Assembly: GCF_017355955.1 (NCBI RefSeq)
Contig: NZ_JAFFID010000005.1
Coordinates: forward strand, 186,001 to 250,000
DNA: 64,000 nucleotides
Direction: 5' to 3'
From: Sabulibacter ruber
Lineage (GTDB): Bacteria; Bacteroidota; Bacteroidia; Cytophagales; Hymenobacteraceae
In this document: positions 2,993 to 63,623 of the stretch, in pieces
Layout of the letters: every line of letters begins with the position of its first letter
How positions within the stretch are numbered: position 1 is the stretch's first letter
The notes under the pieces: generated by a model
What the model was told of the DNA's origin: nothing
Database searches by the model: none
Seen by the model: the letters and a program-made list of their open reading frames with translations, nothing else
Program-made: the position numbers and the translations under genes

Positions 2993-3030
2993 GTTTTTGG
3001 GGTGTTTTCCTGAAACGGGGCCTAAAACAG
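2993..3030. repeat. IR38 palindromic element, copy 1
   Basis: Begins 35 bp after the rhomboid stop. The left arm GTTTTTGGGG and right arm GGCCTAAAACAG enclose the core TGTTTTCCTGAAAC. It matches the dispersed IR38 family of this window. Confidence 0.7.
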
Positions 3031-3190: not shown

Positions 3191-3261
3191 CTATGGCGCG
3201 GAAGTTACTTCCGTGACTTTTAAATTGACTGTAAGTCACGGAAGTAACTTCCGCGCCATAG
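3191..3261. repeat. R1 hairpin repeat, copy a
   Basis: Perfect 29-bp inverted arms (3191-3219 and 3233-3261) around a 13-nt loop. Each arm contains GCGCGGAAGTTACTTCCGTG, itself nearly palindromic. Related copies occur at 25774-25838 and 27969-28026. It lies in the 491-bp non-coding interval between the rhomboid and SPFH genes, which otherwise holds only an IR38 copy and a terminator. Confidence 0.85.
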
Positions 3262-3392
3262 TATCTGTTTAATAACACAGAAAACGGTTTTTAAAACAGC
3301 CTTGTCATCTCTCTACCCCCTTCCAAGAGGAACCGAATGCATGAACTGGATTTCCCTTCTGAGAGCTTGTATCAACGTTGAAGATTTAATCT

Positions 3393-3449: not shown

Positions 3450-4397
3450 TTAGGAAACCTTGTCTCCGTTTTGGGCGGGTTTTCTGGAAATCAGCCCAGA
3501 ATCAACTTTGTCTCGGCTATTCTTGAGCATATCGCCAATGGCGCCTATGTTTCCTAAGGTTTCCACCGCCGAAGTAGGCAGGAAGATCTTGTTGGCGGGG
3601 CCCATGGCTATTTGCTGCAGCGCCTCGAAGGATTTGTAGGTGAGCACCCGCTCGTCCAGGCCGGCTTCAATGAGCAAACGGATACGGGCTTTCTCGGCCT
3701 CGGCAATCTCGGTGATGGCTTTGGCCTGGCCCAGGGCTTCCAGCTCGCGGGCGGCGCGTTCCCCTTCAGCCCGGAGGATCTTGCTGGTTTTATCGCCTTC
3801 AGAGCGCAGAATCATGTCCTGTTTGGCGGCTTCGGCTTCCAGGATAGTAGCCCTACGGTTCCGCTCGGCTTTCATTTGCTTGTCCATGGCTTCCTGGATA
3901 TCCACCGGTGGTTTGATATCGATGACTTCCACCCGTTCAATGCGCACGCCCCACTTCTCGGTGGCTTCGTCCAGCGCAGTTCTGATCTCGGCGGAGATCC
4001 GCTCGCGCCCCGAGAGGGTTTCGTCCAGCTCCAGGTTGCCTATGATCTGGCGCATGGTGGCCGTGGTGATGTTGCGCACCCCCAGCACGTAGTCTGAGAT
4101 GCCGTAGGTGGCCTGCTCTGGCCCCACCACCTGGTAGAACACAATGGTGTCAATGAGCACCTGCACGTTGTCGCGCGTGATCACGCTCTGCGGCGGCACG
4201 CTGGTCTGCTGGATGCGCAGGTCATGGTAGGTGCGCACCCGGTCCACAATAGGAATGAACAGGTTCAGCCCGGGATGCATGAGGCGTTGGAATTTACCCA
4301 GACGCTCTACCACGCCCACCCGCTGCTGCGGAATAATGCGGATGGATAGCGCCATGAGCACAACAACGGCGGCCAGAATAATGAGAGAGGTAGTCAT
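3450..4397 (-). CDS. SPFH/Band 7 (stomatin/QmcA-like) membrane protein
   Basis: A 315-residue protein with one N-terminal membrane segment (about residues 3-22), then an SPFH domain starting VGVVERLGKFQRLMHPG. A long charged helical region follows, rich in Ala/Glu/Arg (about 170-250), typical of prohibitin/stomatin coiled coils. Such proteins form large oligomers that organise membrane microdomains and often act with NfeD proteins and membrane proteases. Here nfeD lies two genes upstream on the same strand, with a secreted protein in between. The stop is followed by a strong hairpin, so this is the last gene of the operon. Confidence 0.92.
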   Translation of the reverse strand: MTTSLIILAAVVVLMALSIRIIPQQRVGVVERLGKFQRLMHPGLNLFIPIVDRVRTYHDLRIQQTSVPPQSVITRDNVQVLIDTIVFYQVVGPEQATYGISDYVLGVRNITTATMRQIIGNLELDETLSGRERISAEIRTALDEATEKWGVRIERVEVIDIKPPVDIQEAMDKQMKAERNRRATILEAEAAKQDMILRSEGDKTSKILRAEGERAARELEALGQAKAITEIAEAEKARIRLLIEAGLDERVLTYKSFEALQQIAMGPANKIFLPTSAVETLGNIGAIGDMLKNSRDKVDSGLISRKPAQNGDKVS

Positions 4398-5824: not shown

Positions 5825-5864
5825 CTGTTTTACAGGTATTTACCGGAAATAGGCCCGAAAACAG
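5825..5864. repeat. IR38 palindromic element, copy 2
   Basis: CTGTTTTACAGG on the left and GGCCCGAAAACAG on the right, with the core TATTTACCGGAAATA. It lies between the divergent nfeD and amidohydrolase genes, so it is not at a gene 3' end. Confidence 0.7.
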
Positions 5865-7255: not shown

Positions 7256-7270
7256 CCCTGGTAATTCCAC

Positions 7271-7390
7271 GCTCGCCTCCGGCGAGTGTGCGGTTTCTCG
7301 CGGCCTGTGGTCACTGTGCGGATGTGATGCGCAGTTGATAAGCAAAGCGGCGAGACGCCGCCTGATTACTCACACTCGCCAGAGGCGAGC
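7271..7390. repeat. R2 inverted-repeat element, copy a
   Basis: Arms of 20 bp (7271-7290 and 7371-7390) of type GCTCGCCTCCGGCGAGTGTG, 19 of 20 matching. Inside lies a small hairpin GCGGCG-aga-CGCCGC. No coding potential. A related but longer copy is at 7665-7892. Confidence 0.75.
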
Positions 7391-7441
7391 GAGAGAGTTG
7401 TGTTAGGCGGTAATACTTTCGCTATAATGTCTTTCTCGTTA

Positions 7442-7466
7442 GCCCGCAAGATCTTTCTAGGATGAC
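7442..7466. repeat. R3 repeat half-copy
   Basis: Contains CAAGATCTTTCTAGGATGAC, matching the right half of the paired R3 repeat at 25883-25974. No partner arm is seen nearby. Confidence 0.5.
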
Positions 7467-7564
7467 AATAAGGGTAAGGATAGAGTCTAATAGTGAGTCT
7501 TTAGACTTTATGCGCACTGTATGGCCCGGAATTACCTCCATGTCTAAAGGGGGGCGATAAAGGG

Positions 7565-7601
7565 CGTTTTGTCTTTTTATTGTGAAACGAGCCCTAAACA
7601 A
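7565..7601. repeat. IR38 palindromic element, copy 3
   Basis: CGTTTTGTC on the left and GAGCCCTAAACAA on the right around TTTTATTGTGAAAC. It lies in the long amidohydrolase-mdh intergenic region. Confidence 0.55.
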
Positions 7602-7664
7602 CTAACATGGGCCGTCATGCCAACTGTCTTTCGCCTTTCAGCGGGTTCTGACTTTCTCACTTTT

Positions 7665-7892
7665 CCCTCGCTCGCCTCCGGCGAGTGTGAGGTATGGGGC
7701 GGCGTCCCGCCGCTATGGGTGATATTCGGAACCACTATGTACCGGTAACTAACCCGATCTTCGGCATTGCGCGATTTTTAGTTGCTTGGTAATAATGCTT
7801 AAAGAAGCTGCGGCAGTATGTCCTAGAAAATTATAACTGCAAAGCGGCGGGACGCCGCCCGATACCTCACACTCGCCGGAGGCGAGCGAGGG
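7665..7892. repeat. R2 inverted-repeat element, copy b (MITE-like)
   Basis: A 228-bp unit with 49-bp terminal inverted arms (7665-7713 and 7844-7892) that match at 48 of 49 positions. The ends start CCCTCGCTCGCCTCCGGCGA. The 130-bp interior has no open frame of note. I see no clear target-site duplication. The shape is that of a non-autonomous mobile or REP-like element. Confidence 0.8.
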
Positions 7893-7926
7893 AAATCATT
7901 CCCTTATTTAGGAAATTGGGTTAAAA

Positions 7927-9012: not shown

Positions 9013-9121
9013 TGATTAATTGTTGATTTCCAAGGACTAATTGTTCATTGCTGATTGTCGATGGTTCATTGTTGATTGCTCATTGATGATTGCTCATTGA
9101 TGATTGCTGATTGCTGATTGT
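9013..9121. repeat. Degenerate ATTG-rich tandem repeat
   Basis: Reiterations of CATTGATGATTG and TGCTGATTG, with related inverted copies at 9214-9237 running into the tilS stop codon. The interval 8922-9234 otherwise holds only IR38 copy 4. No ORF is visible. Confidence 0.7.
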
Positions 9122-9160
9122 TGTTTCAGGCCTGTTTTCCTGAAAACAGCGGTAAAACAG
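9122..9160. repeat. IR38 palindromic element, copy 4
   Basis: TGTTTCAGG then CTGTTTTCCTGAAAACAG, then GGTAAAACAG; a near-consensus inner palindrome. It lies 75 bp beyond the minus-strand tilS stop. Confidence 0.75.
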
Positions 9161-9234: not shown

Positions 9235-10563
9235 TCACGCCCTGGTTACGGTGATCTCCACTACTTCCTGCGTATTCTCGGTTACCTTGAAGCGGTTGTC
9301 CAATTGCTGCCCAATGACCCAGGTAAGCGAAGCATCTGACACCAGCACCCAAACGTCGGGCTTCAGGTTGGCGGGTACCTTTTTGTCAATGAGCAGGTCG
9401 CTCACTTTTTTCTTGCCGTTCATGCCCAGCGGGATAAACCAGTCGCCTTCCTTCCAGGGTCTTAATTTAAGCGGAAGCTTGAGCAGGGCGGCATCCAGGG
9501 CGGCGGTGTCTTTGGAGCGGGGCACTTTGTAGCCCTCGGCGGGTTTCCGGGCTATTTTCGCCAGATAAGGCCCAAATCGGATTTCGGTGGCGTCTTCTGG
9601 TACCAGCACACTGCCAAATTTCTCCAATGGCTTAGGCGTGATGACCAGGTCCTCGCGGTCTTTCACCAGCAGGTGGGTAGGGGAGGCGAACGTCTTACCC
9701 GGGATGCCCTCCCAGGCGGCGGCAATTTCCTGCGCCTGCACATAGGAGAAATGGAACGGTTTTAGCAGTTCGTGAAGCAAAACCACCGGGGCGGGGCTGG
9801 CCTGCAGCGGAGCAATAGAAAGGTGCGTGGCGCCGTTCTCCTCACGTTGCGTTTTGGCCTTCAGTTCCTGAAAAGAGGCCAGAAACACGGCCTCGGCGCC
9901 TTGCAGGCGTTCCAGGGTCTGGGTGAAGGTCTCTTCCAGGTTGGGGTTGAGCTGCTTGAGCACCGGAATTACCTCGTGGCGTACCAGGTTGCGGTTGTAT
10001 TTGCGGCTCTCGTTGCTGGAATCTTCCCGCCACGCCAGGCGTTTAGCTACTAGCCAGTCGTACAGGTCATCTTTGGTGAGGCTGAGGAGCGGGCGGATGA
10101 GGTTTCCGTTTTTGGGCAGAATTCCGTGAAGTCCGGCCAAACCGGTGCCGCGCACCAGGTTCAGGAGCACGGTTTCCAGCGCATCGGACTGATGATGAGC
10201 CGTGGCGATGACGTCGTAGCCCAGTTGCTGGCGCATCTGCTCAAACCACTGGTAGCGCAGGGTGCGGGCCGCCATCTGGATGGAAATGCCTTCCTGCTCG
10301 GCGAAGGCCTGGGTCTGGAACTGCTCACTGTAGAACGGGGCATCATACTGCTTGGCCAGTTTGCGCACAAAGAGCTCATCGGCATCAGATTCCTCGCCGC
10401 GCAGCCCAAAGTTGCAGTGCAGTACCGCAAATGGCAGTTTGAGGCGGTGCAGGACATCGGCCAACACTACAGAGTCAAGGCCTCCGCTTACGGCGGCCAG
10501 GATTCTGGTGTCAGAGGTGGCTAACTGGTGGGCATTTATATATTGTAAAACTTTCTGGAGCAT
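9235..10563 (-). CDS. tilS: tRNA(Ile)-lysidine synthetase TilS
   Basis: A 442-residue ATP-dependent enzyme that turns C34 of the tRNA-Ile CAU anticodon into lysidine so that it reads AUA. The PP-loop motif SGGLDS is at residues 26-31. The conserved pieces LHCNFGLRGEESDADE, ATAHHQSDALET and RPLL follow. The C-terminal TilS domain is recognisable near RPWKEGDWFIPLGMNGKKKVSDLL. The frame is open upstream to about 10827, but the ATG at 10563 gives the canonical N-terminus; the longer form would overlap the divergent lptA-like gene. The TGA stop sits inside an ATTG-type microrepeat. Confidence 0.95.
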   Translation of the reverse strand: MLQKVLQYINAHQLATSDTRILAAVSGGLDSVVLADVLHRLKLPFAVLHCNFGLRGEESDADELFVRKLAKQYDAPFYSEQFQTQAFAEQEGISIQMAARTLRYQWFEQMRQQLGYDVIATAHHQSDALETVLLNLVRGTGLAGLHGILPKNGNLIRPLLSLTKDDLYDWLVAKRLAWREDSSNESRKYNRNLVRHEVIPVLKQLNPNLEETFTQTLERLQGAEAVFLASFQELKAKTQREENGATHLSIAPLQASPAPVVLLHELLKPFHFSYVQAQEIAAAWEGIPGKTFASPTHLLVKDREDLVITPKPLEKFGSVLVPEDATEIRFGPYLAKIARKPAEGYKVPRSKDTAALDAALLKLPLKLRPWKEGDWFIPLGMNGKKKVSDLLIDKKVPANLKPDVWVLVSDASLTWVIGQQLDNRFKVTENTQEVVEITVTRA

Positions 10564-15723: not shown

Positions 15724-15762
15724 CTGTTTCGGGCTCATTTTCCGGAAAATGCCGTTAAAACG
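15724..15762. repeat. IR38 palindromic element, copy 5
   Basis: Starts 4 bp after the PorD-like stop. CTGTTTCGGGCTCATTTTCC on the left, mirrored by GGAAAATGCCGTTAAAACG on the right. Confidence 0.75.
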
Positions 15763-15869: not shown

Positions 15870-15907
15870 CGTTTTTAAGCTGATTTCCGGAAAATACCTT
15901 TAAAACC
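15870..15907. repeat. IR38 palindromic element, copy 6
   Basis: CGTTTTTAAGCTGATTTCC then GGAAAATACCTTTAAAACCG. Its right arm runs straight into the following terminator hairpin. Confidence 0.7.
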
Positions 15908-18025: not shown

Positions 18026-18063
18026 CGTTTAGGGGCTATTTTGTCCAAAGGAGGTCTAAAACG
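18026..18063. repeat. IR38 palindromic element, copy 7
   Basis: CGTTTAGGGGCTATTTTG on the left and GGAGGTCTAAAACG on the right, 12 bp after the recN stop. Confidence 0.7.
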
Positions 18064-18277: not shown

Positions 18278-18320
18278 AAAACAAGAAACCCTCTGCAGCT
18301 CTGCAGAGGGTTTCTTGTTT
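18278..18320. terminator. Bidirectional terminator between recN and M28 peptidase
   Basis: Stem AACAAGAAACCCTCTGCAG and its complement, with A- and T-rich flanks. It lies between convergent genes. Confidence 0.85.
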
Positions 18321-18352
18321 ATGCTTCTTTTAAGAAAATAGGGCTAAAACAT
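18316..18352. repeat. IR38 palindromic element, copy 8
   Basis: TGTTTATGCTTCTTTTAAG then AAAATAGGGCTAAAACA. The left arm overlaps the terminator's T-rich flank. It lies 36 bp beyond the minus-strand peptidase stop. Confidence 0.65.
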
Positions 18353-18387: not shown

Positions 18388-19926
18388 TTACCGCTCCAGT
18401 TTAAAGTTTGGATCAACGGTGGGGCGTTGCGGAGTATTGGAGATGGCCCAACCGGTGGCGTACATCCAGTGGGTCATGCGGGTGAGTTTCCTGTAGTCAA
18501 TTCGGTCGGCTTCGTCTTTGGCGGTGTGGTAATCGGGGTGGAGGAGGGTGGTGAAGAAGATAGCCGGGATACCTGCACGGGCGTAGGGAAGATGGTCGCT
18601 GCGGAAGTACCAACCCTCGGGGTGACGCACGTCGTCCCAGGAGGTGTCAATGCTGAACTTTGAAAAATTTTGGTTTGCCTGTAGGGCCATGTCTACCAAA
18701 GCCTGTGAGTTGCGGTGGGGCAAGGTAGAACCAAGCAGGGCCGCAGAATCGGGGGCGTTACGGCCAATCATGTCTCCGTTGAGCACGGCCACAATGGATT
18801 CCTTTTTTACCGTTGGGTGCTCAGCGTACCAGCGGGAGCCCAGCAAGCCGCGTTCCTCTGCGCCGTGCCACACAAACAAGGCCGAGCGTTGCCCCGGGTT
18901 CTGTTTCCAAGCCCTGCCAATGGCCAGCATGGCCACACTTACGGTGCCATTGTCATCGGCGCCGTTCCAGATAGAATCCCCTTGCACCTGATCGGCTACG
19001 CCGTCGTGGTCATGGTGGCCGCTGAAAAGAACGTATTCATTTTTGAGCGAAGCATCGGCTCCGGGAGCTTTGGCCACCACGTTGATGGAAGGGTATATGA
19101 AACTGTCATACCTCAGATCGGCTTTGATGCTGGCTTTACCCGTGCGCAAAGGAGCCGCTATGGATTGCCGAACCAGGACCACCGGAACCGTTGAGGTTGG
19201 GTGGGCTTGGGCAGAACCTTCCAGACCGTAGGTGCCTTCTTCAAAGCCGTGCCCCACAAATCCTATCTGTTGCTCTGAGGTAGCATCGGTGAGCAAAATC
19301 ACGGCAGTGGCGCCCTGTCGCCGTAAAATGGTACTTGCCTGCCTAACTGCTGACAAGGTGTACCGGTAGCCCCACAAACTCATACCGGGCGCTGGTAAGG
19401 GGTTGGGAGCCTGCAGCGGCATAGCCACTATTTTCCCTTTTAGGCTTTGTTTGGCAGTGTCTGCGTAAGTGGTAAGCCACACCGCAGGGCCATCCAGGTT
19501 GGCTTCTACCGGTGAGGTAACCCAAGCGTCTTTCCAAAGCGGTATGTTATGGCCGTTAATCTGGAAACTGCTGTTGCTGGAGACTTGCACCCGACGGAGC
19601 GGAAAAAACTGAAAATAGGTGCCATCATCTCCGGCAGGTTCCAGGCCTGCCTCACGGGCCCGTTCTGCCACCCAGGCTGCGGCTCGCAACTCTTCAGACT
19701 CACCCGCCCGTCGGCCTCTAAGGCTGTCACTGGCTAAAATGAACAAGTCTCGGCGCAAGTCTTCTTCTTTTATAGAGGAAAGGGCGGGCGGGTTGGTAGG
19801 CGCCGCTGGGGTGCTCTCAGAAACAGTGGCAGGCCGGGTGCAGCTCGCCAATGCCAGCAGGGGCAAGGCGCAGAAGGAAACAAAGTGCCTCCGTTTAAAT
19901 AGGGTAGAAAAATACGAGTGTATCAT
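18388..19926 (-). CDS. M28 family zinc peptidase lipoprotein with PA insert
   Basis: A 512-residue predicted lipoprotein with signal peptide and lipobox LASC near residue 29. The M28 metal sites are visible: HHDHDG near residue 303, NGADDNGTVS, the catalytic Glu pair in HGAEERGLLGSRWY, NGDMIGRN, and terminal SDHLPYARAGIPAIFF. Residues roughly 140-270 fit a protease-associated domain inserted before the catalytic core. M28 enzymes are aminopeptidases or carboxypeptidases. It probably acts at the periplasmic or outer face on peptides. The start ATG directly precedes a basic and hydrophobic signal. Confidence 0.92.
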   Translation of the reverse strand: MIHSYFSTLFKRRHFVSFCALPLLALASCTRPATVSESTPAAPTNPPALSSIKEEDLRRDLFILASDSLRGRRAGESEELRAAAWVAERAREAGLEPAGDDGTYFQFFPLRRVQVSSNSSFQINGHNIPLWKDAWVTSPVEANLDGPAVWLTTYADTAKQSLKGKIVAMPLQAPNPLPAPGMSLWGYRYTLSAVRQASTILRRQGATAVILLTDATSEQQIGFVGHGFEEGTYGLEGSAQAHPTSTVPVVLVRQSIAAPLRTGKASIKADLRYDSFIYPSINVVAKAPGADASLKNEYVLFSGHHDHDGVADQVQGDSIWNGADDNGTVSVAMLAIGRAWKQNPGQRSALFVWHGAEERGLLGSRWYAEHPTVKKESIVAVLNGDMIGRNAPDSAALLGSTLPHRNSQALVDMALQANQNFSKFSIDTSWDDVRHPEGWYFRSDHLPYARAGIPAIFFTTLLHPDYHTAKDEADRIDYRKLTRMTHWMYATGWAISNTPQRPTVDPNFKLER

Positions 19927-23403: not shown

Positions 23404-23441
23404 CTTTTGAGGCTGTTTTTAGGAAAAGAAGGCGAAAACAG
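23404..23441. repeat. IR38 palindromic element, copy 9
   Basis: CCTTTTGAGGCTGTTTTTAG and GGCGAAAACAG arms, lying directly against the hairpin at 23442-23471. Confidence 0.65.
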
Positions 23442-24190: not shown

Positions 24191-24229
24191 CGGTTTTGGG
24201 CATAAATTTCAGGAAATAGGGGTAAACCG
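24191..24229. repeat. IR38 palindromic element, copy 10
   Basis: CGGTTTTGGGCATAAATTTC on the left and GGGGTAAACCG on the right. It sits in the divergent region between the Kazal and first YtxH genes. Confidence 0.6.
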
Positions 24230-25628: not shown

Positions 25629-25667
25629 CCGTTTCAGAGCCGTTTTCTTAAAAAGAGGCTATAAACC
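25629..25667. repeat. IR38 palindromic element, copy 11
   Basis: CCGTTTCAGAGCCGTTTTC and AGAGGCTATAAACC, 8 bp beyond the YtxH terminator. Confidence 0.6.
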
Positions 25668-25773: not shown

Positions 25774-25838
25774 TATGGCGCGGAAGTAACTTCCGTGCCT
25801 TTTATTCACAAGTCAGGGAAGTAACTTCCGCGCCATAG
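25774..25838. repeat. R1 hairpin repeat, copy b
   Basis: TATGGCGCGGAAGTAACTTC opposite GGAAGTAACTTCCGCGCCATA; the same family as 3191-3261. Confidence 0.8.
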
Positions 25839-25882
25839 TAAGAGTAGCTTTGGGTTATTCTTACAAATCAGTAACCTCTATT

Positions 25883-26103: not shown

Positions 26104-26142
26104 CGTTTTAAGCCTTGAATTTCAAAAAAGGGCCATAAACAG
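26104..26142. repeat. IR38 palindromic element, copy 12
   Basis: CGTTTTAAGCCTTGAATTTC and GGGCCATAAACAG. The right arm overlaps the start of the lysS terminator. Confidence 0.65.
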
Positions 26143-27896: not shown

Positions 27897-27934
27897 CGTT
27901 TTGGGGCTGTTTTCCTGAAAACCGCACCGAAACG
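27897..27934. repeat. IR38 palindromic element, copy 13
   Basis: CGTTTTGGGGCTGTTTTCC then TGAAAACCGCACCGAAACG, close to the family consensus. The complementarity extends outward (AAAG / CTTT). Confidence 0.8.
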
Positions 27935-28100: not shown

Positions 28101-28138
28101 GTTTTTGAGTTGTTTTTTGTTAAACAGCCCGAAAACAA
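28100..28138. repeat. IR38 palindromic element, copy 14
   Basis: CGTTTTTGAGTTGTTTTTTG and CAGCCCGAAAACAA. It lies 33 bp beyond the minus-strand aldo/keto reductase stop; an AATTAACAATTAATTA-like microrepeat follows. Confidence 0.65.
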
Positions 28139-30997: not shown

Positions 30998-31010
30998 AGG
31001 CTAGAAAAAT

Positions 31011-31052
31011 CCTGTTTTAAGGCTGATTTCTTGAAATAAGGCTTGAAACAGG
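31011..31052. repeat. IR38 palindromic element, copy 15
   Basis: CCTGTTTTAAGGCTGATTTC opposite GAAATAAGGCTTGAAACAGG. The flanks add AAT / ATT pairs, giving a long stem. It starts 14 bp after a stop codon. Confidence 0.85.
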
Positions 31053-31061
31053 ATTACCCAT

Positions 31062-32330: not shown

Positions 32331-32368
32331 CGTTTTAAGGGTGTTTTTCTCAAAAGGGAATTTAAGCA
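32331..32368. repeat. IR38 palindromic element, copy 16 (diverged)
   Basis: CGTTTTAAGGGTGTTTTTC on the left and GGGAATTTAAGC on the right; the outer right arm is eroded. Confidence 0.5.
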
Positions 32369-32452: not shown

Positions 32453-32492
32453 TTGATTTAGGTCTATTTTTCTCTAAATAGGTCAAAAACAA
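32453..32492. repeat. IR38 palindromic element, copy 17
   Basis: TTGATTTAGGTCTATTTTTC opposite AAATAGGTCAAAAACAA; covarying arms TTG / CAA. It lies in the divergent interval upstream of the T9SS nuclease. Confidence 0.65.
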
Positions 32493-36091: not shown

Positions 36092-36126
36092 CCGTTTCTA
36101 AGCTGTTTTTACTAAATCTGCCTCAA
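36092..36126. repeat. IR38 palindromic element, copy 18
   Basis: CCGTTTCTAAGCTGTTTTTA and AATCTGCCTCAAAC. It ends about 9 bp before the ggt start codon, so it would lie in that gene's 5' leader. Confidence 0.55.
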
Positions 36127-36134
36127 ACCACGCC

Positions 36135-37955: not shown

Positions 37956-37992
37956 CGTTTTGGGCTTTATTTTATAAAAAAGTTCAAAAATG
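37956..37992. repeat. IR38 palindromic element, copy 19 (diverged)
   Basis: CGTTTTGGGCTTTATTTTA is a good left half; the right half AAAAAGTTCAAAAATG is weak. A further inverted pair, AGTTCAAAAATGTAAC (from 37981) and GTTACATTTTTG (from 38067), surrounds the rest of this 355-bp interval before the porP-like gene. Confidence 0.45.
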
Positions 37993-39252: not shown

Positions 39253-40425
39253 ATGGAGCTCTCATACATCCTGAACGAACTAGCCGAGGACCGGACCGCG
39301 TACTTTAATGCCGTGGCGCCTCCCATCATGCAGACCAGCAATTTTGCGAGCCGTACGGTGGCCGAGATGCGCCATAAACTGCAGAATGAAACCGAATCTG
39401 ATTTCTATACTCGCGGCAATAACCCTACGGTGCGGATGCTGGAGCAGAAAATTGCAGCCTTGGAGGGAACCGAGGAGGCGATAGCCTTTGGCAGTGGTAT
39501 GGGAGCTGTTTCCGCGGCGGTTTTGTCTCAGGTGAAAGCCGGTGATCATGTGGTCTGCGTGAAAAGGCCTTATACCGGGGCCAATAAATTGATGCGCCAC
39601 TTGCTGCCTCGGTTTGGGGTGGAAGTCACCATGGTAGACGGAAGAGAGATCCAGAACTTCTTCCAGGCTGCCAAGGAGAATACCACCCTTTTTTATCTGG
39701 AAAGCCCCAGCTCTTTTACGTTTGAATTACAGGATATTGAAGCCATCACCGCCTTTGCACGGGAAAGAGGTATTAGCACAGTGATTGACAACAGCTTTGC
39801 CTCACCCTTGTTCCAGAGCCCCGCCGCCATGGGGGTAGATCTGGTGGTACATTCGGCAACCAAATACATTAGTGGGCACGGAGATGTGCTGGGAGGCATT
39901 GTGTGCGGCAGCCGCGAACGTATTAACCGGATATTCCTGTCTGAATACATGACCCTGGGCGCAGTGCTATCACCGCATGATGCCTGGCTCCTGGTCCGGG
40001 GACTCAGAACCTTGCCCATCAGGATGGAGCGGGTAGCTCAAACAACCCGGCAGGTGGTGGCTTTCCTGCAGCAGCGAAAAGAAGTGGCTGAGGTTATCTG
40101 GCCTTTTCTGCCAAACCATCCGCAGTACCAGCTGGCCAGAAAGCAGATGCGGAACAACACCGGGCAATTCTCCATCCGGTTGCAGGCTGATACCCTTGAG
40201 CAGGTAGAAACGTTCTGCGATAGCCTGCAGCACTTCACCATGGCAGCTTCCTGGGGCGGGTATGAATCCCTGATCTTCCCCGTTGCCGCGTCTTACACTT
40301 CCGGAGGGTTCAAGCCTTCTCTGCCGTTCACCTTCATCCGGTTCTACATAGGCCTGGAAGATGCGGAATACCTGATGAGGGATTTGGAACAGGCTTTTCA
40401 GAAAATGAATCAACAGCCGTTTTAG
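39253..40425 (+). CDS. Cys/Met metabolism PLP-dependent enzyme (cystathionine gamma-synthase/lyase-like)
   Basis: A 390-residue enzyme of the Cys/Met trans-sulfuration fold. Visible are YTRGNNPTVRMLEQKIAALE with the cofactor-phosphate Tyr/Arg, GSGMGAVSAAVL, the Asp of VIDNSFASP, and the PLP lysine 204 in HSATKYISGHGDV. The C-terminal part carries the Arg binding the substrate carboxylate near FIRFYIGLED. The members (synthase, beta-lyase, gamma-lyase, O-acetylhomoserine sulfhydrylase) cannot be told apart from sequence alone. The last codons CAG-CCG-TTT-TAG lie inside IR38 copy 20, so that element supplies the stop codon. Confidence 0.9.
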   Translation: MELSYILNELAEDRTAYFNAVAPPIMQTSNFASRTVAEMRHKLQNETESDFYTRGNNPTVRMLEQKIAALEGTEEAIAFGSGMGAVSAAVLSQVKAGDHVVCVKRPYTGANKLMRHLLPRFGVEVTMVDGREIQNFFQAAKENTTLFYLESPSSFTFELQDIEAITAFARERGISTVIDNSFASPLFQSPAAMGVDLVVHSATKYISGHGDVLGGIVCGSRERINRIFLSEYMTLGAVLSPHDAWLLVRGLRTLPIRMERVAQTTRQVVAFLQQRKEVAEVIWPFLPNHPQYQLARKQMRNNTGQFSIRLQADTLEQVETFCDSLQHFTMAASWGGYESLIFPVAASYTSGGFKPSLPFTFIRFYIGLEDAEYLMRDLEQAFQKMNQQPF

Positions 40426-40455
40426 AGCTATTTTCCAGAAAAGGCAATAAAAAAG
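40417..40455. repeat. IR38 palindromic element, copy 20 (overlaps a stop codon)
   Basis: CCGTTTTAGAGCTATTTTCC and AGAAAAGGCAATAAAAAA. The TAG stop of the PLP-enzyme gene is part of the left arm. It runs directly into the terminator. Confidence 0.7.
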
Positions 40456-42941: not shown

Positions 42942-43784
42942 ATGGAAACCAACACAACCCACCCCGCCACCCTAGATGACATGATTTTTGAAGGCCGCAA
43001 CAAAGCCTACGGGGCCTACGTGCTCCGCAAGCTGTATAACCGGCATATCACCCAGGCTTCTTTGTATGCCATTACTATCTCGCTCATCGGGTTTTCCATT
43101 CCCACGGTGGCCAACATGCTGTCAGAAAAGGCACCTGTGATAGCCGCCAAAACAGATTCAGGCATCATTAAGATTACCCCAGTGGAGTTGCCATTGGTAG
43201 AAGAAGCGAAACAGGTGAAGCCTGAGCCACCTGCGGCCCCAGCCAAACCCTCGGCCCCAACAGTGAAGAATACCACCATCAAAGTAGTAGAAGATTCTAA
43301 GCCCGTGGTTGATGAAGTGCCCAGCCAGGATCAGCTTAAAGAAGCCAACTCAGGATTGGAAACTACTCCCGGTGACGGCAGCGGGAACCTGAACAACCCA
43401 GAACCCACCGGAGGAACCGGCACCGGCACCGGTGATGGAACCGGCTCTACTTCTGGTGCCGCCGAGACAACGGTCTTTGTAAGCGTGGAGCATATGCCCG
43501 AGTTTGACGGCGGCTTATCTAAACTGATGGAGTATGTAGGCAAAAATCTGCGCTACCCCAGAGCGGCTCAGGCCCACGGAGTGGAGGGAACGGTAGTGGT
43601 GAGTTTTGTAGTCTCCACCACCGGCGACATTACCGATATTCAGGTGCTCAAAGGGCTGGGCTACGGCACCGAGGATGAAGCCATCAGGGTCATGAAGAAA
43701 CTGCCCCGCTGGAAACCCGGTTACCAGAACGGAAGATCGGTTCCGGTGAGAATGACCTTGCCCATCCGGCTGGAACTGAAATAA
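42942..43784 (+). CDS. TonB family energy transducer
   Basis: A 280-residue inner-membrane-anchored protein. The cytosolic N-terminus has the Bacteroidota phrase DDMIFEGRNKAYGAYVLRKLY. One membrane segment lies near 42-62. A long Pro/Lys/Gly/Thr-rich spacer crosses the periplasm, with GTGTGTGDGTGSTSG repeats. The C-terminal TonB domain (about 190-280) runs from MPEFDGGLSKLMEYVGKNL to WKPGYQNGRSVPVRMTLPI. It transfers proton-motive force to outer-membrane receptors. No ExbB/ExbD lies next to it. Confidence 0.93.
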   Translation: METNTTHPATLDDMIFEGRNKAYGAYVLRKLYNRHITQASLYAITISLIGFSIPTVANMLSEKAPVIAAKTDSGIIKITPVELPLVEEAKQVKPEPPAAPAKPSAPTVKNTTIKVVEDSKPVVDEVPSQDQLKEANSGLETTPGDGSGNLNNPEPTGGTGTGTGDGTGSTSGAAETTVFVSVEHMPEFDGGLSKLMEYVGKNLRYPRAAQAHGVEGTVVVSFVVSTTGDITDIQVLKGLGYGTEDEAIRVMKKLPRWKPGYQNGRSVPVRMTLPIRLELK

Positions 43785-43810
43785 GATCGCTTAATCGGTT
43801 CTTTGTATAA

Positions 43811-43866
43811 CCAGTGTCCTGTTTTTGCTCCGTATTTCCTAAAACGGGCTGAAAACAGGACACTGG
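43811..43866. repeat. IR38 palindromic element, copy 21, with long outer stem
   Basis: Core copy at 43818-43859, extended by perfect 15-bp outer arms CCAGTGTCCTGTTTT and AAAACAGGACACTGG. Located 27 bp after the tonB stop. Confidence 0.9.
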
Positions 43867-43891
43867 CCCTTCTCAGGAGAAGTATAAAAAC

Positions 43892-43929
43892 AGAAAAGCC
43901 CCATCTCAAACCAGAGGCGGGGCTTTTCC
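43892..43929. terminator. Terminator of the YflT-like gene
   Basis: AAAAGCCCC pairs with GGGGCTTTT across about 16 nt, 19 bp beyond the minus-strand stop. Confidence 0.75.
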
Positions 43930-43947
43930 AGGAGGAGTGTCTAACGA

Positions 43948-44490
43948 TTAACGGTAGATGTGCTCACCACGGTTGGTGCGCCACTCATTCTCAAAGTATT
44001 CGGCATCTTCATGTGAGCGAGGAGTTACGCCCATCACAATATTTCCTTCTTTGATGCCAGACTCATACACTTTGGCTCTGTCTTCAGGAATTCCAGAACC
44101 TACCAGGGCGCCCAGCAAACCACCTGTAAGCCCACCAGCTCCGGCACCTGCCAAACCAGCTGCCAATGGACCGGCAATTACTAATCCCAGACCAGGCAGG
44201 GCAACAGAAGTACCAATAGCGGCAATGGCGCCTACAATGGCTCCTAAGGTACCACCAATGGCAGAACCTGCCCCGGCACCTTCCAGGGCTTTGCTGCCCA
44301 GTTCAGTGTCATTGTCACGGTTGTCTGCGAAGTGGCGCTTGCGGGCGTCATCGCTCATGATTACGTTGATATCATCTCTGCTGTATCCGCGGCTGTGTAG
44401 GGCGTTATACGCGCGCTCTGCGCTGTCTCTGTCTCTGAACATTCCCGTCATCATGCGGGAGTTGTGGGTGTTTCCAGTGTGATTTTCCAT
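43948..44490 (-). CDS. YflT-like general stress protein with glycine-zipper core
   Basis: A 180-residue protein. The N-terminal domain (about 14-55, MMTGMFRDRDSAERAYNALH, GYSRDDINVIM) fits the general stress protein 17M/YflT domain. A long Gly/Ala-rich hydrophobic stretch (about 70-130) with glycine-zipper pattern probably forms membrane-inserted helices. The end returns to a hydrophilic alpha/beta segment. These proteins appear in stress regulons; the biochemical activity is unknown. I chose the ATG at 44490; the frame continues 33 bp upstream without support. Confidence 0.85.
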   Translation of the reverse strand: MENHTGNTHNSRMMTGMFRDRDSAERAYNALHSRGYSRDDINVIMSDDARKRHFADNRDNDTELGSKALEGAGAGSAIGGTLGAIVGAIAAIGTSVALPGLGLVIAGPLAAGLAGAGAGGLTGGLLGALVGSGIPEDRAKVYESGIKEGNIVMGVTPRSHEDAEYFENEWRTNRGEHIYR

Positions 44491-44650: not shown

Positions 44651-44688
44651 CGTTTCAATTGTATTTTTACCGAAAGAGCTTGAAAACG
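44651..44688. repeat. IR38 palindromic element, copy 22
   Basis: CGTTTCAATTGTATTTTTAC and CGAAAGAGCTTGAAAACG. It lies 13 bp beyond the minus-strand protease stop. Confidence 0.65.
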
Positions 44689-46585: not shown

Positions 46586-46825
46586 ATGAAAAAGGTATTT
46601 TCTCTTGCCCTGGTAGCTGGTATGTTCGCTTTCGCTTCTTGCGAGTCTAAGCCTGCTGAAGGAACTGAAGGAGCTGCTGGAACTGAAGCTACTTCTACTG
46701 AAGGTGCTACTGGTACTGAAGGTGCTGCTACTACTGACACTACTGGAACTGCAACTGGTACTGACACCACTGCTACTACTACTGACTCTACTGCCGCTAC
46801 TACCGGTACTACTACTGCTCAGTAA
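46586..46825 (+). CDS. Small Thr/Ala/Gly-rich lipoprotein
   Basis: A 79-residue protein with a good lipoprotein signal (MKKVFSLALVAGMFAFASC, Cys19). The remaining 60 residues are low complexity, made of Thr, Ala, Gly, Glu, then Asp and Thr (GTEGAAGTEATSTEGATG). No domain is recognised. The DNA is built of ACTGGTACT-like repeats with T-ending codons, unlike the GC-richer neighbours. It is divergent from the sigma factor, 139 bp away, so it might belong to that regulon (speculation). The signal peptide and the following terminator support a real gene. Confidence 0.8.
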   Translation: MKKVFSLALVAGMFAFASCESKPAEGTEGAAGTEATSTEGATGTEGAATTDTTGTATGTDTTATTTDSTAATTGTTTAQ

Positions 46826-46906: not shown

Positions 46907-46952
46907 AGTCCGTTTTAGACCTGTTTTCTGTAAACCAGGCCTAAAACGGACT
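46907..46952. repeat. IR38 palindromic element, copy 23, with extended stem
   Basis: AGTCCGTTTTAGACCTG opposite CAGGCCTAAAACGGACT, around TTTTCTGTAAAC: a stem of about 17 bp with one mismatch. It lies 14 bp beyond the minus-strand proline dehydrogenase stop. Confidence 0.9.
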
Positions 46953-48199: not shown

Positions 48200-48240
48200 G
48201 TTGTTTCTTGGCCGGTTTTCAAAAAAAGCCTTTAAAACAG
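48200..48240. repeat. IR38 palindromic element, copy 24
   Basis: TTGTTTCTTGGCCGGTTTTC and AAGCCTTTAAAACAG. It lies in the divergent promoter region, 24 bp before the DAHP synthase ATG. Confidence 0.65.
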
Positions 48241-49497: not shown

Positions 49498-49537
49498 CTG
49501 TTTTGGGGCTGTTTTCAAGAAATCGGCCGCAAAACAG
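49498..49537. repeat. IR38 palindromic element, copy 25
   Basis: CTGTTTTGGGGCTGTTTTC then GAAATCGGCCGCAAAACAG: matched outer arms CTGTTTT / AAAACAG. It sits between the DAHP synthase and aroB, 17 bp before the aroB start. Confidence 0.85.
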
Positions 49538-50595: not shown

Positions 50596-51830
50596 TTTCA
50601 GCTGCTGCCGTGCGCGTGTCGCACCCAACGGGCGTGGTGCGCGGGCGCGTGACCTTGCCTGCCTCCAAAAGCGAAGCCAACCGGGCCCTTATCATCCGGG
50701 CTTTATCGGGGAAAGATTTCCCTATTCATAACCTGTCAGATGCCAATGACACCCAGCTCCTGAACCGGCTGCTTTCCACGCCCGCCGGCGAAGAAGTAAG
50801 CGCCGAGGATGCGGGTACCGTCATGCGTTTCCTGACCGCCTACTATGCCGCCACGGGCCAGAAACTGGTGCTCACCGGTACCCCTCGCATGTGCCAGCGC
50901 CCCATCGGGGTTTTGGTAGATGCCCTACGTCAGTTAGGCGCCCAGATTGAATACCTAGGTCAGGAAGGCTATCCGCCCATGAGAATGAACGGCTTTGAAC
51001 CCAGTGGCACCAATCAATTGACCGTCCGTTCCGACATCAGCAGCCAGTACATCTCGGCCTTGCTTATGATTGGCCCGTTGTTGCCGGACGGGTTGGAACT
51101 GACCCTGGAAGGAAAAATCAGCTCAGAGCCCTATATAAGGATGACTCTGGCTCAGATGGCGCATTTTGGCGTGCAGGCCACCTTTGAAGGGCAGAAGATC
51201 TCCGTGCCTAAGCAGGAATACCAGGCCAAAGAATACACCGTGGAGTCTGACTGGTCAGCGGCCAGTTACTGGTACAGCATCGCGGCCTTGGCCAGGGAAG
51301 CAGACTTGTTTTTGCCTGCCCTCCGGAACGATTCTCTGCAAGGCGATAGCGTGTTGCCTACGCTCATGGCTCCGTTTGGCGTGCAGACACAGTTCACCCC
51401 CGAGGGCGTGCAACTGACCAAGCAGCCGGTGCAGGAACAGTTGGAGCGCATTGATTTCTTTGCCTGTCCAGACCTGGCCCAGACCGTTGCTGCGCTGGCC
51501 GCTGGCTTGAAAGTAGAAGTAGAGATGACCGGCCTGGAAAGCCTCCGCATAAAAGAAACCGACCGTATTGCTGCCCTTCAGGCAGAACTGGTGAAAGTAG
51601 GAGCCGAGTTAAAGGAAACAGAGCCCGACGTTTTCAAGGTCTTTTTAACAAATCAGCCCGAAAACGAGGCTTCCATCCACACCTATGAAGACCACCGCAT
51701 GGCCATGGCTTTCGCACCCTTGGCCTTGAAACAGCCGTTGGTGATTGAAGAACCCAAGGTAGTTCGTAAATCCTACCCCAGGTATTGGGATGAACTCCAA
51801 AAGGCAGATTTTAAGGTAGAGGAATTGTAG
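50592..51830 (+). CDS. aroA: 3-phosphoshikimate 1-carboxyvinyltransferase (EPSP synthase)
   Basis: A 412-residue enzyme joining PEP to shikimate-3-phosphate. Visible are LPASKSEANRALI at residues about 23-35, the AEDAGTVMRFL and TGTPRMCQRPIGVLVDAL motifs, SDISSQYISALLM, ESDWSAASYW, and ESLRIKETDRI. Near the C-terminus YEDHRMAMAFAPLAL and the terminal VVRKSYPRYWDEL complete the fold. Start ATG overlaps the aroB stop. Residues about 347-358 (VFKVFLTNQPEN) are encoded by a sequence that matches the IR38 repeat, in a loop before the EDHRMA motif. Confidence 0.96.
   Translation: MISAAAVRVSHPTGVVRGRVTLPASKSEANRALIIRALSGKDFPIHNLSDANDTQLLNRLLSTPAGEEVSAEDAGTVMRFLTAYYAATGQKLVLTGTPRMCQRPIGVLVDALRQLGAQIEYLGQEGYPPMRMNGFEPSGTNQLTVRSDISSQYISALLMIGPLLPDGLELTLEGKISSEPYIRMTLAQMAHFGVQATFEGQKISVPKQEYQAKEYTVESDWSAASYWYSIAALAREADLFLPALRNDSLQGDSVLPTLMAPFGVQTQFTPEGVQLTKQPVQEQLERIDFFACPDLAQTVAALAAGLKVEVEMTGLESLRIKETDRIAALQAELVKVGAELKETEPDVFKVFLTNQPENEASIHTYEDHRMAMAFAPLALKQPLVIEEPKVVRKSYPRYWDELQKADFKVEEL
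51629..51666. repeat. IR38-like element inside aroA, copy 26
   Basis: CGTTTTCAAGGTCTTTTTAAC and AATCAGCCCGAAAACG: 7-bp perfect outer arms and an inner right half like the intergenic copies. It is wholly in frame within the coding sequence. Confidence 0.6.
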
Positions 51831-53580: not shown

Positions 53581-53627
53581 AATCCGTTTTTCGCTTGATT
53601 CTCAGAAATCAGCCTAAAGAAACGGTT
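53581..53627. repeat. IR38 palindromic element, copy 27
   Basis: AATCCGTTTTTCGCTTGATT and AAATCAGCC then AAAGAAACGGTT; matched outer arms CCGTTT / AAACGG. It lies 12 bp beyond the minus-strand GNAT stop. Confidence 0.75.
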
Positions 53628-54326: not shown

Positions 54327-54365
54327 CTGTTTTAAGCTTCTTTTCTGCTAAACAGGTCCAAAAAG
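54327..54365. repeat. IR38 palindromic element, copy 28
   Basis: CTGTTTTAAGCTTCTTTTC and TAAACAGGTCCAAAAAG, directly against the M42 stop and ahead of its terminator. Confidence 0.65.
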
Positions 54366-57368: not shown

Positions 57369-57408
57369 ATGTTTCAGGCTCCTTTTTGAAATTTCGGTCC
57401 AAAAACAA
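57369..57408. repeat. IR38 palindromic element, copy 29
   Basis: ATGTTTCAGGCTCCTTTTTG and AAATTTCGGTCCAAAAACAAA. A weaker related sequence begins at 57540 (CTGTTTTAGATAC). Confidence 0.55.
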
Positions 57409-57612
57409 AGGCTACCTGCAGCTGGGAGAAAGTAATGTTTCACTGCGTATTGGGGTGAGGGAAAGGCGTACTTAGGCCATTTTAAGTATTTTTCCGCTCT
57501 GTGTGTGTTGGTTTCATCTGCTAGTTCTTTGATTATGAGCTGTTTTAGATACAACTTTGCTAAACTGGCCCAACTTGTTTTTAGGATAATTTTTTAAAAG
57601 TAACCAGAAAAT

Positions 57613-61190: not shown

Positions 61191-61231
61191 GCTGTTTTGG
61201 TGCCTTTTAAGGGAAAACAGCCCGGAAACAG
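61191..61231. repeat. IR38 palindromic element, copy 31
   Basis: GCTGTTTTGGTGCCTTTTAAG opposite GGAAAACAGCCCGGAAACAG. It lies in the divergent region upstream of the LLM oxidoreductase. Confidence 0.7.
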
Positions 61232-62531: not shown

Positions 62532-62558
62532 CCGTTTTCGGCCTGTTTTCCTGAAAAT
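62532..62558. repeat. IR38-like half element at the lpxL-like start, copy 32
   Basis: CCGTTTTCGGCCTGTTTTCC then TGAAAATG, where the ATG of the following gene falls in the right side. Only the left half and core are preserved. Confidence 0.55.
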
Positions 62559-63504
62559 GCATCATAAAGAATCAACCAACCCTTTTTCGCGTCCTGAGTT
62601 TACGCCCGGTCAACTGCCTTTGTGGTGGCTGCTGAAGGGGATCTCGTTGTTGCCCTTTCCGGTGCTGTATGCTTTTTCCACGTTTTTGTACGTAATCATG
62701 TACCACGTGGTGGGCTACCGGAAAAAGGTGGTGCGGCAGAACCTGGAGCGCTCTTTCCCGCATAAAAGTGCAGCGGAGCTAAAGAGGATTGAAAAACAGT
62801 TCTTCCTGAACTTAACTGATCTGATTGTAGAATGCCTGAAACTAGTTTCTCTTTCGCCTTCAGATTTGCGAAAGAGAGTGACCTCAACCGGAAGTGAGAA
62901 GGTAATTCAGACGCTTTCCAGCGGAAGTCCGGTCCTGATTTTAGGGGCGCATTTGGGCAATTGGGAATATATGTCTGCTGCCGGAAACAGCATTTTCTCC
63001 TTTCCTATTGATGGCGTGTACAAACCGCTGGCCAGTTCCTTTTTTGAGGAGTTCATGAAGTTTATGCGTGGCCGGTTCGGGATCAACCTGGTTCGCATGA
63101 AAGACACCTTGCGCCATATCCTTAGGCACAGAGGGGAGCAACGAATCCTGACCCTGCTATCAGACCAGGTTCCGCCCTACGGCGAAATCCAGTACTGGAC
63201 CACTTTCCTGCATCAGGACACTCCCTTTTATGTGGGGGCTGAGAAACTGAGAACGTCCTTCAACTACCCTACTTTTTTCATTGGCATGCGCCACCTCAGG
63301 CGCGGGTATTACCAGATTGAGTTTCAGGAGTTGCTGCCTGCCCCATCAAAGGGAGTTCAGGAAGAGGGGCACCCGGTGACAGATGCCTTTGCCCGTAGAC
63401 TGGAGGAATGGATAGAGCAATACCCGTCTGAATACCTGTGGTCGCACAAGCGCTGGAAGCACAAGCGGCCGCAGTCCGAGGCCGTGGCTAGTCCTGAGTC
63501 TTGA
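62557..63504 (+). CDS. Lysophospholipid acyltransferase (LpxL/HtrB-like)
   Basis: A 315-residue membrane-associated acyltransferase. The catalytic motif HLGNWE places His132 and Glu137 in the HX4(D/E) spacing of late lipid A acyltransferases. An N-terminal hydrophobic segment (LPLWWLLKGISLLPF) anchors it. Other family signs are VVRQNLERSFPHKS and the C-terminal YLWSHKRWKHK. It adds the secondary acyl chain to lipid A or a similar lipid. I start it at the ATG at 62557; an upstream frame to 62458 has no supporting sequence and overlaps repeat DNA. Its stop TGA lies inside a short GAGTCTTGAG microrepeat. Confidence 0.9.
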   Translation: MHHKESTNPFSRPEFTPGQLPLWWLLKGISLLPFPVLYAFSTFLYVIMYHVVGYRKKVVRQNLERSFPHKSAAELKRIEKQFFLNLTDLIVECLKLVSLSPSDLRKRVTSTGSEKVIQTLSSGSPVLILGAHLGNWEYMSAAGNSIFSFPIDGVYKPLASSFFEEFMKFMRGRFGINLVRMKDTLRHILRHRGEQRILTLLSDQVPPYGEIQYWTTFLHQDTPFYVGAEKLRTSFNYPTFFIGMRHLRRGYYQIEFQELLPAPSKGVQEEGHPVTDAFARRLEEWIEQYPSEYLWSHKRWKHKRPQSEAVASPES

Positions 63505-63543: not shown

Positions 63544-63591
63544 AAAAACAAAGCAGCCCTGGCAAGTACTTGCCAGGGCTGCTTTGTTTTT
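63544..63591. terminator. Perfect 48-bp palindromic bidirectional terminator
   Basis: AAAAACAAAGCAGCCCTGGC and the rest of the left 24 bases are exactly mirrored on the right with no loop bases. It lies between convergent acyltransferase and YciO-family genes. Confidence 0.9.
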
Positions 63592-63623
63592 GAGCTCTTC
63601 TTGGAAAATCAGCCTAAAAACAA
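63584..63623. repeat. IR38 palindromic element, copy 33
   Basis: TTGTTTTTGAGCTCTTCTTG and GGAAAATCAGCC then TAAAAACAAC. The left arm is shared with the terminator's T-run. 50 bp beyond the minus-strand gene stop. Confidence 0.7.

Follow-up and report, generated by a model that had tools for sequence, protein, structure and literature searches.

A 36-bp dyad-symmetric motif, GTTTTnGGGCTGTTTTCnnGAAAACAGCCCnAAAAC, recurs at high density along the window, the whole 64,000-nucleotide stretch of DNA analyzed here, and on balance is probably a genus-specific recognition site in double-stranded DNA for a putative DNA-binding factor; it is uptake-sequence-like, as a candidate only. The palindrome, the conservation of its tracts, the rarity of half-sites, the species dialects, and the copies that appear in place within genes together indicate a dyad site for such a putative factor, and from them we infer the factor, its nature, and the effect of its binding.

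Copies were scored with a position matrix of 36 columns at a threshold of 15 bits, with the reversed sequence as the control; the training set included 10 loci fetched by pattern, and the window and four further loci (L011 to L014) were unbiased. The window held 38 copies versus 1 in the control, and a 464-kb sample of the same genome gave 254 matches, 252 of them with full flanks, versus 1 control match. The resulting density, 537 copies/Mb, extrapolates to approximately 3,300 copies in the 6.16-Mb genome, with copies spaced 1,612 bp apart on average, and across the genus the extrapolated totals run from approximately 1,600 to 3,800 copies per genome. Within the motif, T/A tracts at approximately positions 2 to 5, 13 to 16, 21 to 24, and 32 to 35 flank G+C-rich spacers. 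The tract centers lie 11, 8, and 11 bp apart in the A+T profile, a spacing which suggests that a bound factor would make its contacts on one face of the helix. Half-sites alone were only mildly in excess, with 78 outside full copies versus 45 in the control at 13 bits, and the half-site was set aside as the unit of the motif on that ground. The full motif carries 28.3 bits in its own genome, versus the approximately 11 bits that by our calculation would place 3,300 sites in 6.16 Mb; this surplus counts against the preferred reading, as a simple protein site requires far less.

Copies occurred on both strands of the window. Those on the plus strand lay at positions 40 to 75 (28.5 bits; coding by home-made gene calls), 2993 to 3028 (41.6 bits), 5827 to 5862 (33.5 bits), 9123 to 9158 (39.1 bits), 9543 to 9578 (27.4 bits; in a tilS-like coding sequence), 18027 to 18062 (33.4 bits), 23404 to 23439 (32.8 bits), 24193 to 24228 (23.6 bits), 25631 to 25666 (37.7 bits), 28101 to 28136 (37.5 bits), 32332 to 32367 (25.6 bits), 32455 to 32490 (31.0 bits), 36094 to 36129 (34.4 bits), 37956 to 37991 (23.0 bits; site A of our orthologue table), 44652 to 44687 (28.3 bits; site D), 49500 to 49535 (42.9 bits; site G), 57371 to 57406 (23.5 bits), 57577 to 57612 (28.2 bits), and 63586 to 63621 (36.2 bits), with weak matches at 7564 to 7599 (15.7 bits) and, in coding sequence, at 10108 to 10143 (16.6 bits). 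On the minus strand, copies were found at 3468 to 3503 (33.2 bits; at the 3′ end of an SPFH/Band 7 gene), 9851 to 9886 (27.7 bits; again in tilS-like coding sequence), 15726 to 15761 (32.7 bits), 15871 to 15906 (39.7 bits), 18315 to 18350 (23.0 bits), 26105 to 26140 (25.3 bits), 27898 to 27933 (38.9 bits), 40419 to 40454 (29.7 bits; site B, which includes the stop codon of the upstream gene), 48203 to 48238 (32.0 bits; site F, between divergent genes), 53586 to 53621 (25.0 bits; site I), 54329 to 54364 (28.7 bits; site J, adjoining a stop codon), 61194 to 61229 (32.9 bits), and 62534 to 62569 (34.0 bits). The aroA copy and three copies with extended stems are described below. Rfam gave no match in the window at gathering thresholds, and the region from 43700 to 44100 had no match among plasmids. 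The 36-base consensus had no match among phages or plasmids and the exact consensus pattern none in viral contigs, searches that degenerate copies would escape.

Other repeats were also present. A second palindromic family of near-identical copies (TATGGCGCGGAAGTTACTTCCGTG), REP/BIME-like and frequently arranged as inverted pairs, occurred at window positions 3193 to 3263 and 25775 to 25840 and in five further loci (L135, L136, L140, L144, and L147); two of its copies (L136, 18842 and 18930) lay within 250 bp of a match to a Y1 transposase (RAYT type) at position 19089 of that locus. A third family, built around CTCGCCTCCGGCGAG, gave 11 matches in 464 kb, several of them as inverted pairs (window positions 7267 to 7893; L128, L132, L135, and L137). 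A minisatellite of 7-base, ATTGCTG-like units at 9040 to 9120 stood just before the motif copy at 9123, and imperfect tandem repeats of 18 to 48 bases (ACTGAAGGTGCT-like) at 46661 to 46803, upstream of the copy at 46907, possibly encode a small repetitive protein on the plus strand.

The genus range was taken from 16 genomes assigned to the genus of the window genome, called Rufibacter here on the strength of a window protein whose best named relatives were those of R. psychrotolerans, Rufibacter sp. SYSU D00344, R. hautae, and R. glacialis. The motif was present in all 16 at 340 to 726 copies/Mb. A strict pattern allowing at most 3 mismatches was found in 15 of the 16 and, outside the genus, in 0 of 104 family genomes sampled from a larger group, and a control pattern gave no match; the sixteenth genus member (G015) carried a degenerate form, with 37 copies in 79 kb versus 1 in the control. 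At 15 bits, Hymenobacter gave 1 match in 900 kb (control, 1), Pontibacter 4 in 371 kb (control, 1), Adhaeribacter 0 in 71 kb (control, 1), and sequence from outside the family 4 in 145 kb (control, 3). Moreover, in samples of up to approximately 300 kb from each sister group, no gapped 5-mer palindrome was as enriched as that of Rufibacter (36 versus 1). We conclude that the motif is restricted to the genus within the samples taken. As a separate observation, Hymenobacter showed some enrichment of gapped 5-mer palindromes of its own, 19 versus 0 at best.

Each species wrote the motif in its own way. Species matrices, symmetric by construction, differed in their consensus, with GTTTTCGGGCTCATTTCC in G014, GTTTTTGGCCTGTTTTC in G012 and G009, and GTTTAGGGGCTGTTTTT in G003, and both arms were changed in single copies, for example at sites C and J of G014 (L118). 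To compare like with like, species matrices trained without the tested loci were applied to 103 copies at shared sites, and these fit the matrix of their own species better than those of others: the own matrix took a mean rank of 4.46 among the 16 and came first for 29 of the 103 copies. The own-minus-others difference was 6.27 bits versus 0.83 with labels permuted within sites, and 0 of 2,000 permutations were as extreme; one best match for the aroA site (L111) was a different nearby copy and was retained in these ranks and in the arm counts given below. We conclude that species dialects exist at shared sites. The total information of the motif ranged from 23.4 to 50.6 bits per species, a twofold variation in which G014, G010, and G009 stood high and G015 and G001 low. 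In species with low information, the factor may be in the course of being lost, a clue by which its gene might be located, and part of the motif may be decaying.

Most copies were intergenic. By home-made gene calls, which are an approximation, 55 of the 252 copies in the window genome fell in coding positions, and among intergenic regions of at least 60 bp, copies occupied 49 of 56 convergent, 92 of 149 tandem, and 18 of 45 divergent regions. In tandem regions, copies tended to sit nearer the stop codon upstream (relative position, 0.41 on average; n = 98). A copy of at least 20 bits was found in 93 of 111 anchored orthologous intergenic regions, with aroA left out, a count that by itself says little, given that copies occur in most convergent and tandem regions anyway.

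Copies inside genes were compared with outgroups for signs of insertion. Three genes were taken from the 55 coding matches as high-scoring copies in recognizable enzymes. In aroA (EPSP synthase), which holds the copy at window positions 51630 to 51665 on the plus strand, the motif was present in 16 of 16 genus members (15.3 to 40.1 bits) and in 0 of 14 outgroup rows (best, 3.4 bits), these being the loci returned from 23 outgroup genomes matched. None of the 14 rows was shorter at the motif position, and two solved AroA sequences differed there by no more than 2 residues, too few for an insertion, which would add 12. Likewise, the N-terminal segment of methylmalonyl-CoA mutase carried the motif in 16 of 16 genus members (15.6 to 40.8 bits) and in 0 of 12 outgroup rows (best, 6.0 bits); 8 of the 12, none scoring above 3.3 bits, aligned from residue 1 or 2 and differed in length by −3 to +1 residues, again versus the 12 that an insertion would need. 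In an Mrp-like (proton-antiporter-type) subunit, the motif was present in 5 of 5 close genus orthologues and not in the single outgroup orthologue. We conclude that the motif is present within these three genes without a matching insertion. The residues that it encodes in methylmalonyl-CoA mutase varied widely among the genus species, and what is held at coding copies appears, from the alignments, to be the DNA rather than the protein. Copies also sit inside conserved coding sequence, in which no role for a hairpin is evident.

To follow substitutions within copies, the closest species pair, G002 and G007 (88% identity), was aligned; 90,980 of 219,990 bases of G002 were mapped, and 48 of its 124 copies aligned without gaps. 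Among the 15 noncoding copies alignable without gaps (2 in each other species pair), conservation was 0.900 in the tracts, 0.744 in the G+C arms, and 0.600 in the center, versus 0.829 in the noncoding flank, such that the tracts were conserved and the arms drifted faster than the flank. Consistent with conservation of the tracts, the middle base of TTT/AAA was kept in 136 of 142 cases in noncoding elements versus 391 of 436 in other noncoding DNA. Absence of the motif was seen in 2 of 75 sampled loci of other species, and both, sampled via copy number and not independently of it, were island-like. One (L231; G001:C10:300001-320000) carried a phage integrase, a HamA defense gene, a DpnII-like nuclease, and a UmuC-type polymerase, and the other (L218; G015:C1:1500001-1520000) a type I restriction subunit, a DDE transposase, and a Cap4-like nuclease gene. 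The poorest locus of the window genome (L133) held 2 copies and a resolvase; among low-copy loci, the two zero-copy loci and, in part, this one were covered. A search for a phage portal in the window genome found none.

A minority of copies carried stems longer than the core. The copy at 43811 to 43866 (core, 43821 to 43856, plus strand; 34.3 bits) had a 10-bp extended stem (CCAGTGTCCT/AGGACACTGG), with CCAGTGTCC/GGACACTGG read directly at 43811 to 43819 and 43858 to 43866. It was of the hairpin type and lay between the stop codon of a tonB-like gene and a separate, bidirectional terminator-like hairpin (AAAAGCCCC...GGGGCTTTT) at 43893 to 43929, the like of which, in other letters, was read at the same place in 14 aligned orthologues. 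The copy at 46907 to 46952 (core, 46912 to 46947, plus strand; 41.8 bits) was extended by AGTCC at 46907 to 46911 and GGACT at 46948 to 46952 and was accompanied by TTTTT, and that at 31008 to 31055 (core, 31014 to 31049, plus strand; 37.1 bits) by AATCCT/AGGATT, including AAT at 31008 to 31010 and ATT at 31053 to 31055. An earlier note on this DNA had reported matched flanks at these three places and taken them for long, copy-specific extensions of the stem, and both observations were borne out: at least 5 perfectly paired flank bases were found in 24 of 252 copies in the 464-kb sample versus approximately 1 expected, and at least 4 in 28 of 252 versus approximately 3 expected.

To determine whether pairing was maintained at individual stems, covariation was measured in the window and 14 anchored orthologues. 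At 46907, 93.2% of cells were paired and 15 of 22 pairs were changed on both sides, with 0 of 500 shuffles as high, in 12 of the 15 sequences (two, L113 and L115, were out for a shifted register and L114 for a score of 19.9 bits). At 43811, also in 12 of 15 sequences (L115 was weak, and L120 and L121 had no copy), 78.0% of cells were paired and covariation was 0.306 versus 0.182, a score attained by 0 of 500 shuffles; pairs changed on both sides were ordinary in number (84 of 500 shuffles). Covariation was thus the stronger at 46907 of the two sites tested. Flanks paired better between arms of the same species than between arms of different species at both sites, 0.90 versus 0.51 at 46907 and 0.71 versus 0.59 at 43811. 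Core arms did so by a margin of 0.02 to 0.10 at 8 of the 10 sites compared, an excess that counts against the preferred reading and for which dialects alone may account in part, and at the aroA site own and cross-species core pairing were equal at 0.66. We conclude that 43811 and 46907 support selection for pairing at these two copies.

Such support did not clearly extend to the family. The earlier note had argued that the arms co-vary across copies and that pairing itself is under selection. That claim was clearly supported only for the extended minority, strongly at 46907 and moderately at 43811 when its proposed check on orthologues was run. In copies of the window genome, the first flank pair was complementary in 42% versus 37% after shuffling, and unextended copies paired about as shuffled ones did. 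Of the 18 core pairs in copies of the window genome, 3 exceeded shuffling by more than 3 standard deviations and 2 by 2.5, and the remaining 13 showed a smaller excess or none. Copies of that genome with fewer than 3 extended pairs had a Watson-Crick pairing of 0.570 versus 0.567 shuffled, or 0.677 versus 0.664 with G-U allowed (z, 2.0), and a folding energy of −6.22 versus −5.16 kcal/mol after column shuffling (z, −4.5). Across the 16 species, the symmetric pairing of unextended copies gave z values of −1.5 to 0.9 for Watson-Crick pairs and −1.3 to 2.0 with G-U. Copies with at least 4 extended pairs, which made up 5 to 35% of copies across species, paired above the shuffled level in 8 of 8 scorable species, by 0.004 to 0.110.

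Direct comparison of G002 with G007 agreed with these counts. When Watson-Crick pairs alone were counted, 99 paired cells lost their pairing, 83 unpaired cells gained it, and 8 were changed on both sides and still paired. With G-U allowed and the four central bases excluded, 84 became unpaired, 71 became paired, and 36 were changed and still paired (29 by a single change and 7 by a double change). In this closest pair, arm substitutions therefore broke pairing at least as often as they kept it, the outcome that the earlier note had itself named as speaking against selection on pairing, and by that standard the family-wide claim is largely refuted. Folding was more favorable to pairing: column shuffling worsened the folding of unextended copies in 14 of 16 species (in 5 of them, z was −3 or beyond) and that of all copies together in 15 of 16. 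The excess is weak evidence of a wider constraint because column shuffling breaks neighboring pairs and mixes good with decayed copies, and pairing may matter slightly beyond the minority. It is also a point against the preferred reading, being due to some pairing constraint or to shared copy quality. In loci L108 to L121 and other genus loci, unextended copies likewise folded slightly better, though their symmetric pairing was not raised. We conclude that only a minority of copies, including 43811 and 46907, is clearly kept as paired stems, and that a few covarying copies can lead a whole family of palindromic DNA sites to be read as RNA structures.

Other explanations account for parts of these data. 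It is improbable that the family as a whole functions by folding as a transcript or cruciform: the covariation at 46907 and 43811, the frequency of long extensions, the folding excess, the better match of own-species core arms, and the near-perfect copies with symmetric changes among strict-pattern matches are what such a function would produce, and the symmetric pairing of unextended copies, the 84 broken versus 36 kept cells, and the equal pairing of own and cross-species arms in aroA are not. Less probable still, and indeed the least probable of the explanations weighed here, is quasi-palindrome correction, in which template switching during replication copies one arm onto the other with no selection on pairing. 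It would explain matched, locus-specific flanks such as those at 43811 without new selection and could contribute to the extended minority, yet it should act on all copies, of which the unextended show little excess pairing, and it explains neither tract conservation nor dialects. Spread by transposition, as a mobile REP/MITE-like repeat moved by a RAYT or other transposase, is very unlikely. Thousands of dispersed palindromic copies would fit it, as would the finding that 15 of 16 genomes have genes of the Y1 transposase family (RAYT or IS200 type), but the three coding genes held no matching insertion, G012 had 490 copies/Mb and no Y1 match, and the Y1 match in L136 was flanked by the separate near-identical REP-like family in inverted pairs, with the nearest motif copy approximately 3 kb away. 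Mobilization by RAYT was set aside on these grounds, with the reservation that 6 of 8 Y1 loci had a motif copy within approximately 0.5 kb of the transposase match, a share roughly like the one that the density of the motif would give.

A further alternative is that the motif marks self DNA and is spread by biased uptake and recombination, a molecular drive like that of uptake sequences in which no site bears a cost or a benefit. We regard this as possible but doubtful. Origin in place, dialects, absence from the two island-like loci, adoption by terminator-like stems, and excess information all agree with it, as do the presence of ComEC in 16 of 16 genomes and a spacing of 1,612 bp close to the approximately 1,500 nt given for meningococcal DUS in the part of PMC2397512 drawn on here. 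The excess information and the likeness to Neisseria DUS favor some drive, biased uptake for example, over selection for binding. On the other hand, the type IV pilus motor ATPase family (PF00437) passed its cut-off in none of the 16 genomes, 8 of which gave weak matches under that level, and passed it in 13 of 14 in the control; this result argues against a classical uptake system. The known uptake sequences have cores of 9 to 12 bases, according to the literature listed and the same part of PMC2397512, and are not 36-bp dyads, and half-sites here were only mildly in excess.

Under the preferred reading, that of a dyad recognition site, a putative trans-acting factor, most likely an abundant, chromosome-bound dimeric protein, would read the motif. 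Base substitution in place would create and maintain sites wherever the sequence tolerates them, chiefly in intergenic DNA near gene ends and sometimes in coding DNA, and a shift in the preference of the factor within a lineage would carry its sites toward a new species dialect. As the motif is almost a palindrome, a minority of gene-end copies would have been taken up as hairpins, many of them probably terminators, in which arms and flanks co-vary. More tentatively, and as a proposal that we think unlikely on present evidence, Rufibacter may mark itself with a 36-bp dyad tag every 1.4 to 3 kb, in a dialect set by a fast-evolving putative factor and with no type IV pilus. If so, the genome would tell acquired DNA from its own through a bias in uptake or recombination or through silencing. 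Thousands of sites that are kept in place, that persist in genes while the encoded residues change, and that have a dialect in each species would imply a trans-acting factor of chromosome-wide reach. We know of no self-marking system of this kind in Bacteroidota, and the comparable systems known to us are the uptake sequences of Neisseriaceae and Pasteurellaceae and the cyanobacterial HIP1. Among the matches listed in the open-access literature (titles and abstract openings; subscription journals lie outside it) on palindromes of Rufibacter and Hymenobacteraceae, intergenic repeats of Bacteroidetes, or uptake sequences, no description of the motif was found. A long palindromic counterpart of these known systems in Bacteroidota, with no type IV pilus ATPase detected, would allow a direct test, in a new phylum, of why bacteria keep highly repeated motifs.

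Compared with known repeats, the motif is like REP/BIME elements with RAYT in being dispersed, palindromic, and mostly intergenic and is unlike them in having no matching insertion in the three coding genes, in being present in G012, which gave no Y1 match, and in sharing its genome with a separate REP-like family. Spread by insertion, the mark of REP elements, was not seen in those genes, and intergenic empty sites aligned but not cleanly. The foot GT[AG]G, given as a rule for REP in the portion of PMC6006769 used here, which adds that some REP classes have no foot, was within 6 nt of the core edge in only 34 of 1,015 copies. Intrinsic (Rho-independent) terminators resemble a minority of copies, those with an extended, covarying stem and a T-run, as at 46907. 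TTTT stood at the stem end in 55 of 111 extended copies, a share that fits terminators for about half of the extended minority, versus 126 of 865 unextended copies, in which it is rare; the T-run thus fits a minority and not the family, some of whose copies lie within coding sequence. HIP1 is an 8-bp sequence, whereas the motif is 36 bp long and degenerate. HIP1 is tied to methyltransferases. Like the motif, HIP1 is a palindrome that is confined to a clade, is repeated many times, and takes alternate forms in certain lineages, as described in the part of PMC4390886 consulted.

The motif also resembles the uptake sequences of Neisseriaceae (DUS) and Pasteurellaceae (USS). The motif differs from these in being a 36-bp palindrome rather than a directional core of 9 to 12 bases and in belonging to a different phylum, and the type IV pilus-type machinery expected of them was not found at the cut-off (PF00437, 0 of 16; ComEC, 16 of 16). 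A dyad-symmetric arrangement of DUS is, however, described for Simonsiella in the section of PMC3630211 used here. Three further features expected of DUS and USS were found, namely, over-representation with clade specificity (16 of 16 genus genomes, and 0 of 104 others by the strict pattern), dialects between related species in both the species matrices and the shared sites, and presence in coding DNA without insertion in three genes. As the parts of PMC3630211, PMC1939737, and PMC2397512 at hand describe them, DUS and USS are, like the motif, numerous at permissive intergenic and coding positions, divided into dialects, and spaced near 1.5 kb; they are also often located in terminators, as a minority of motif copies may be, and absent from acquired genes, as the motif is from the two island-like loci. 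Within those parts, PMC2397512 argues that many recent DUS have come by recombination, and PMC1939737 that uptake sequences originate gradually by point mutation.
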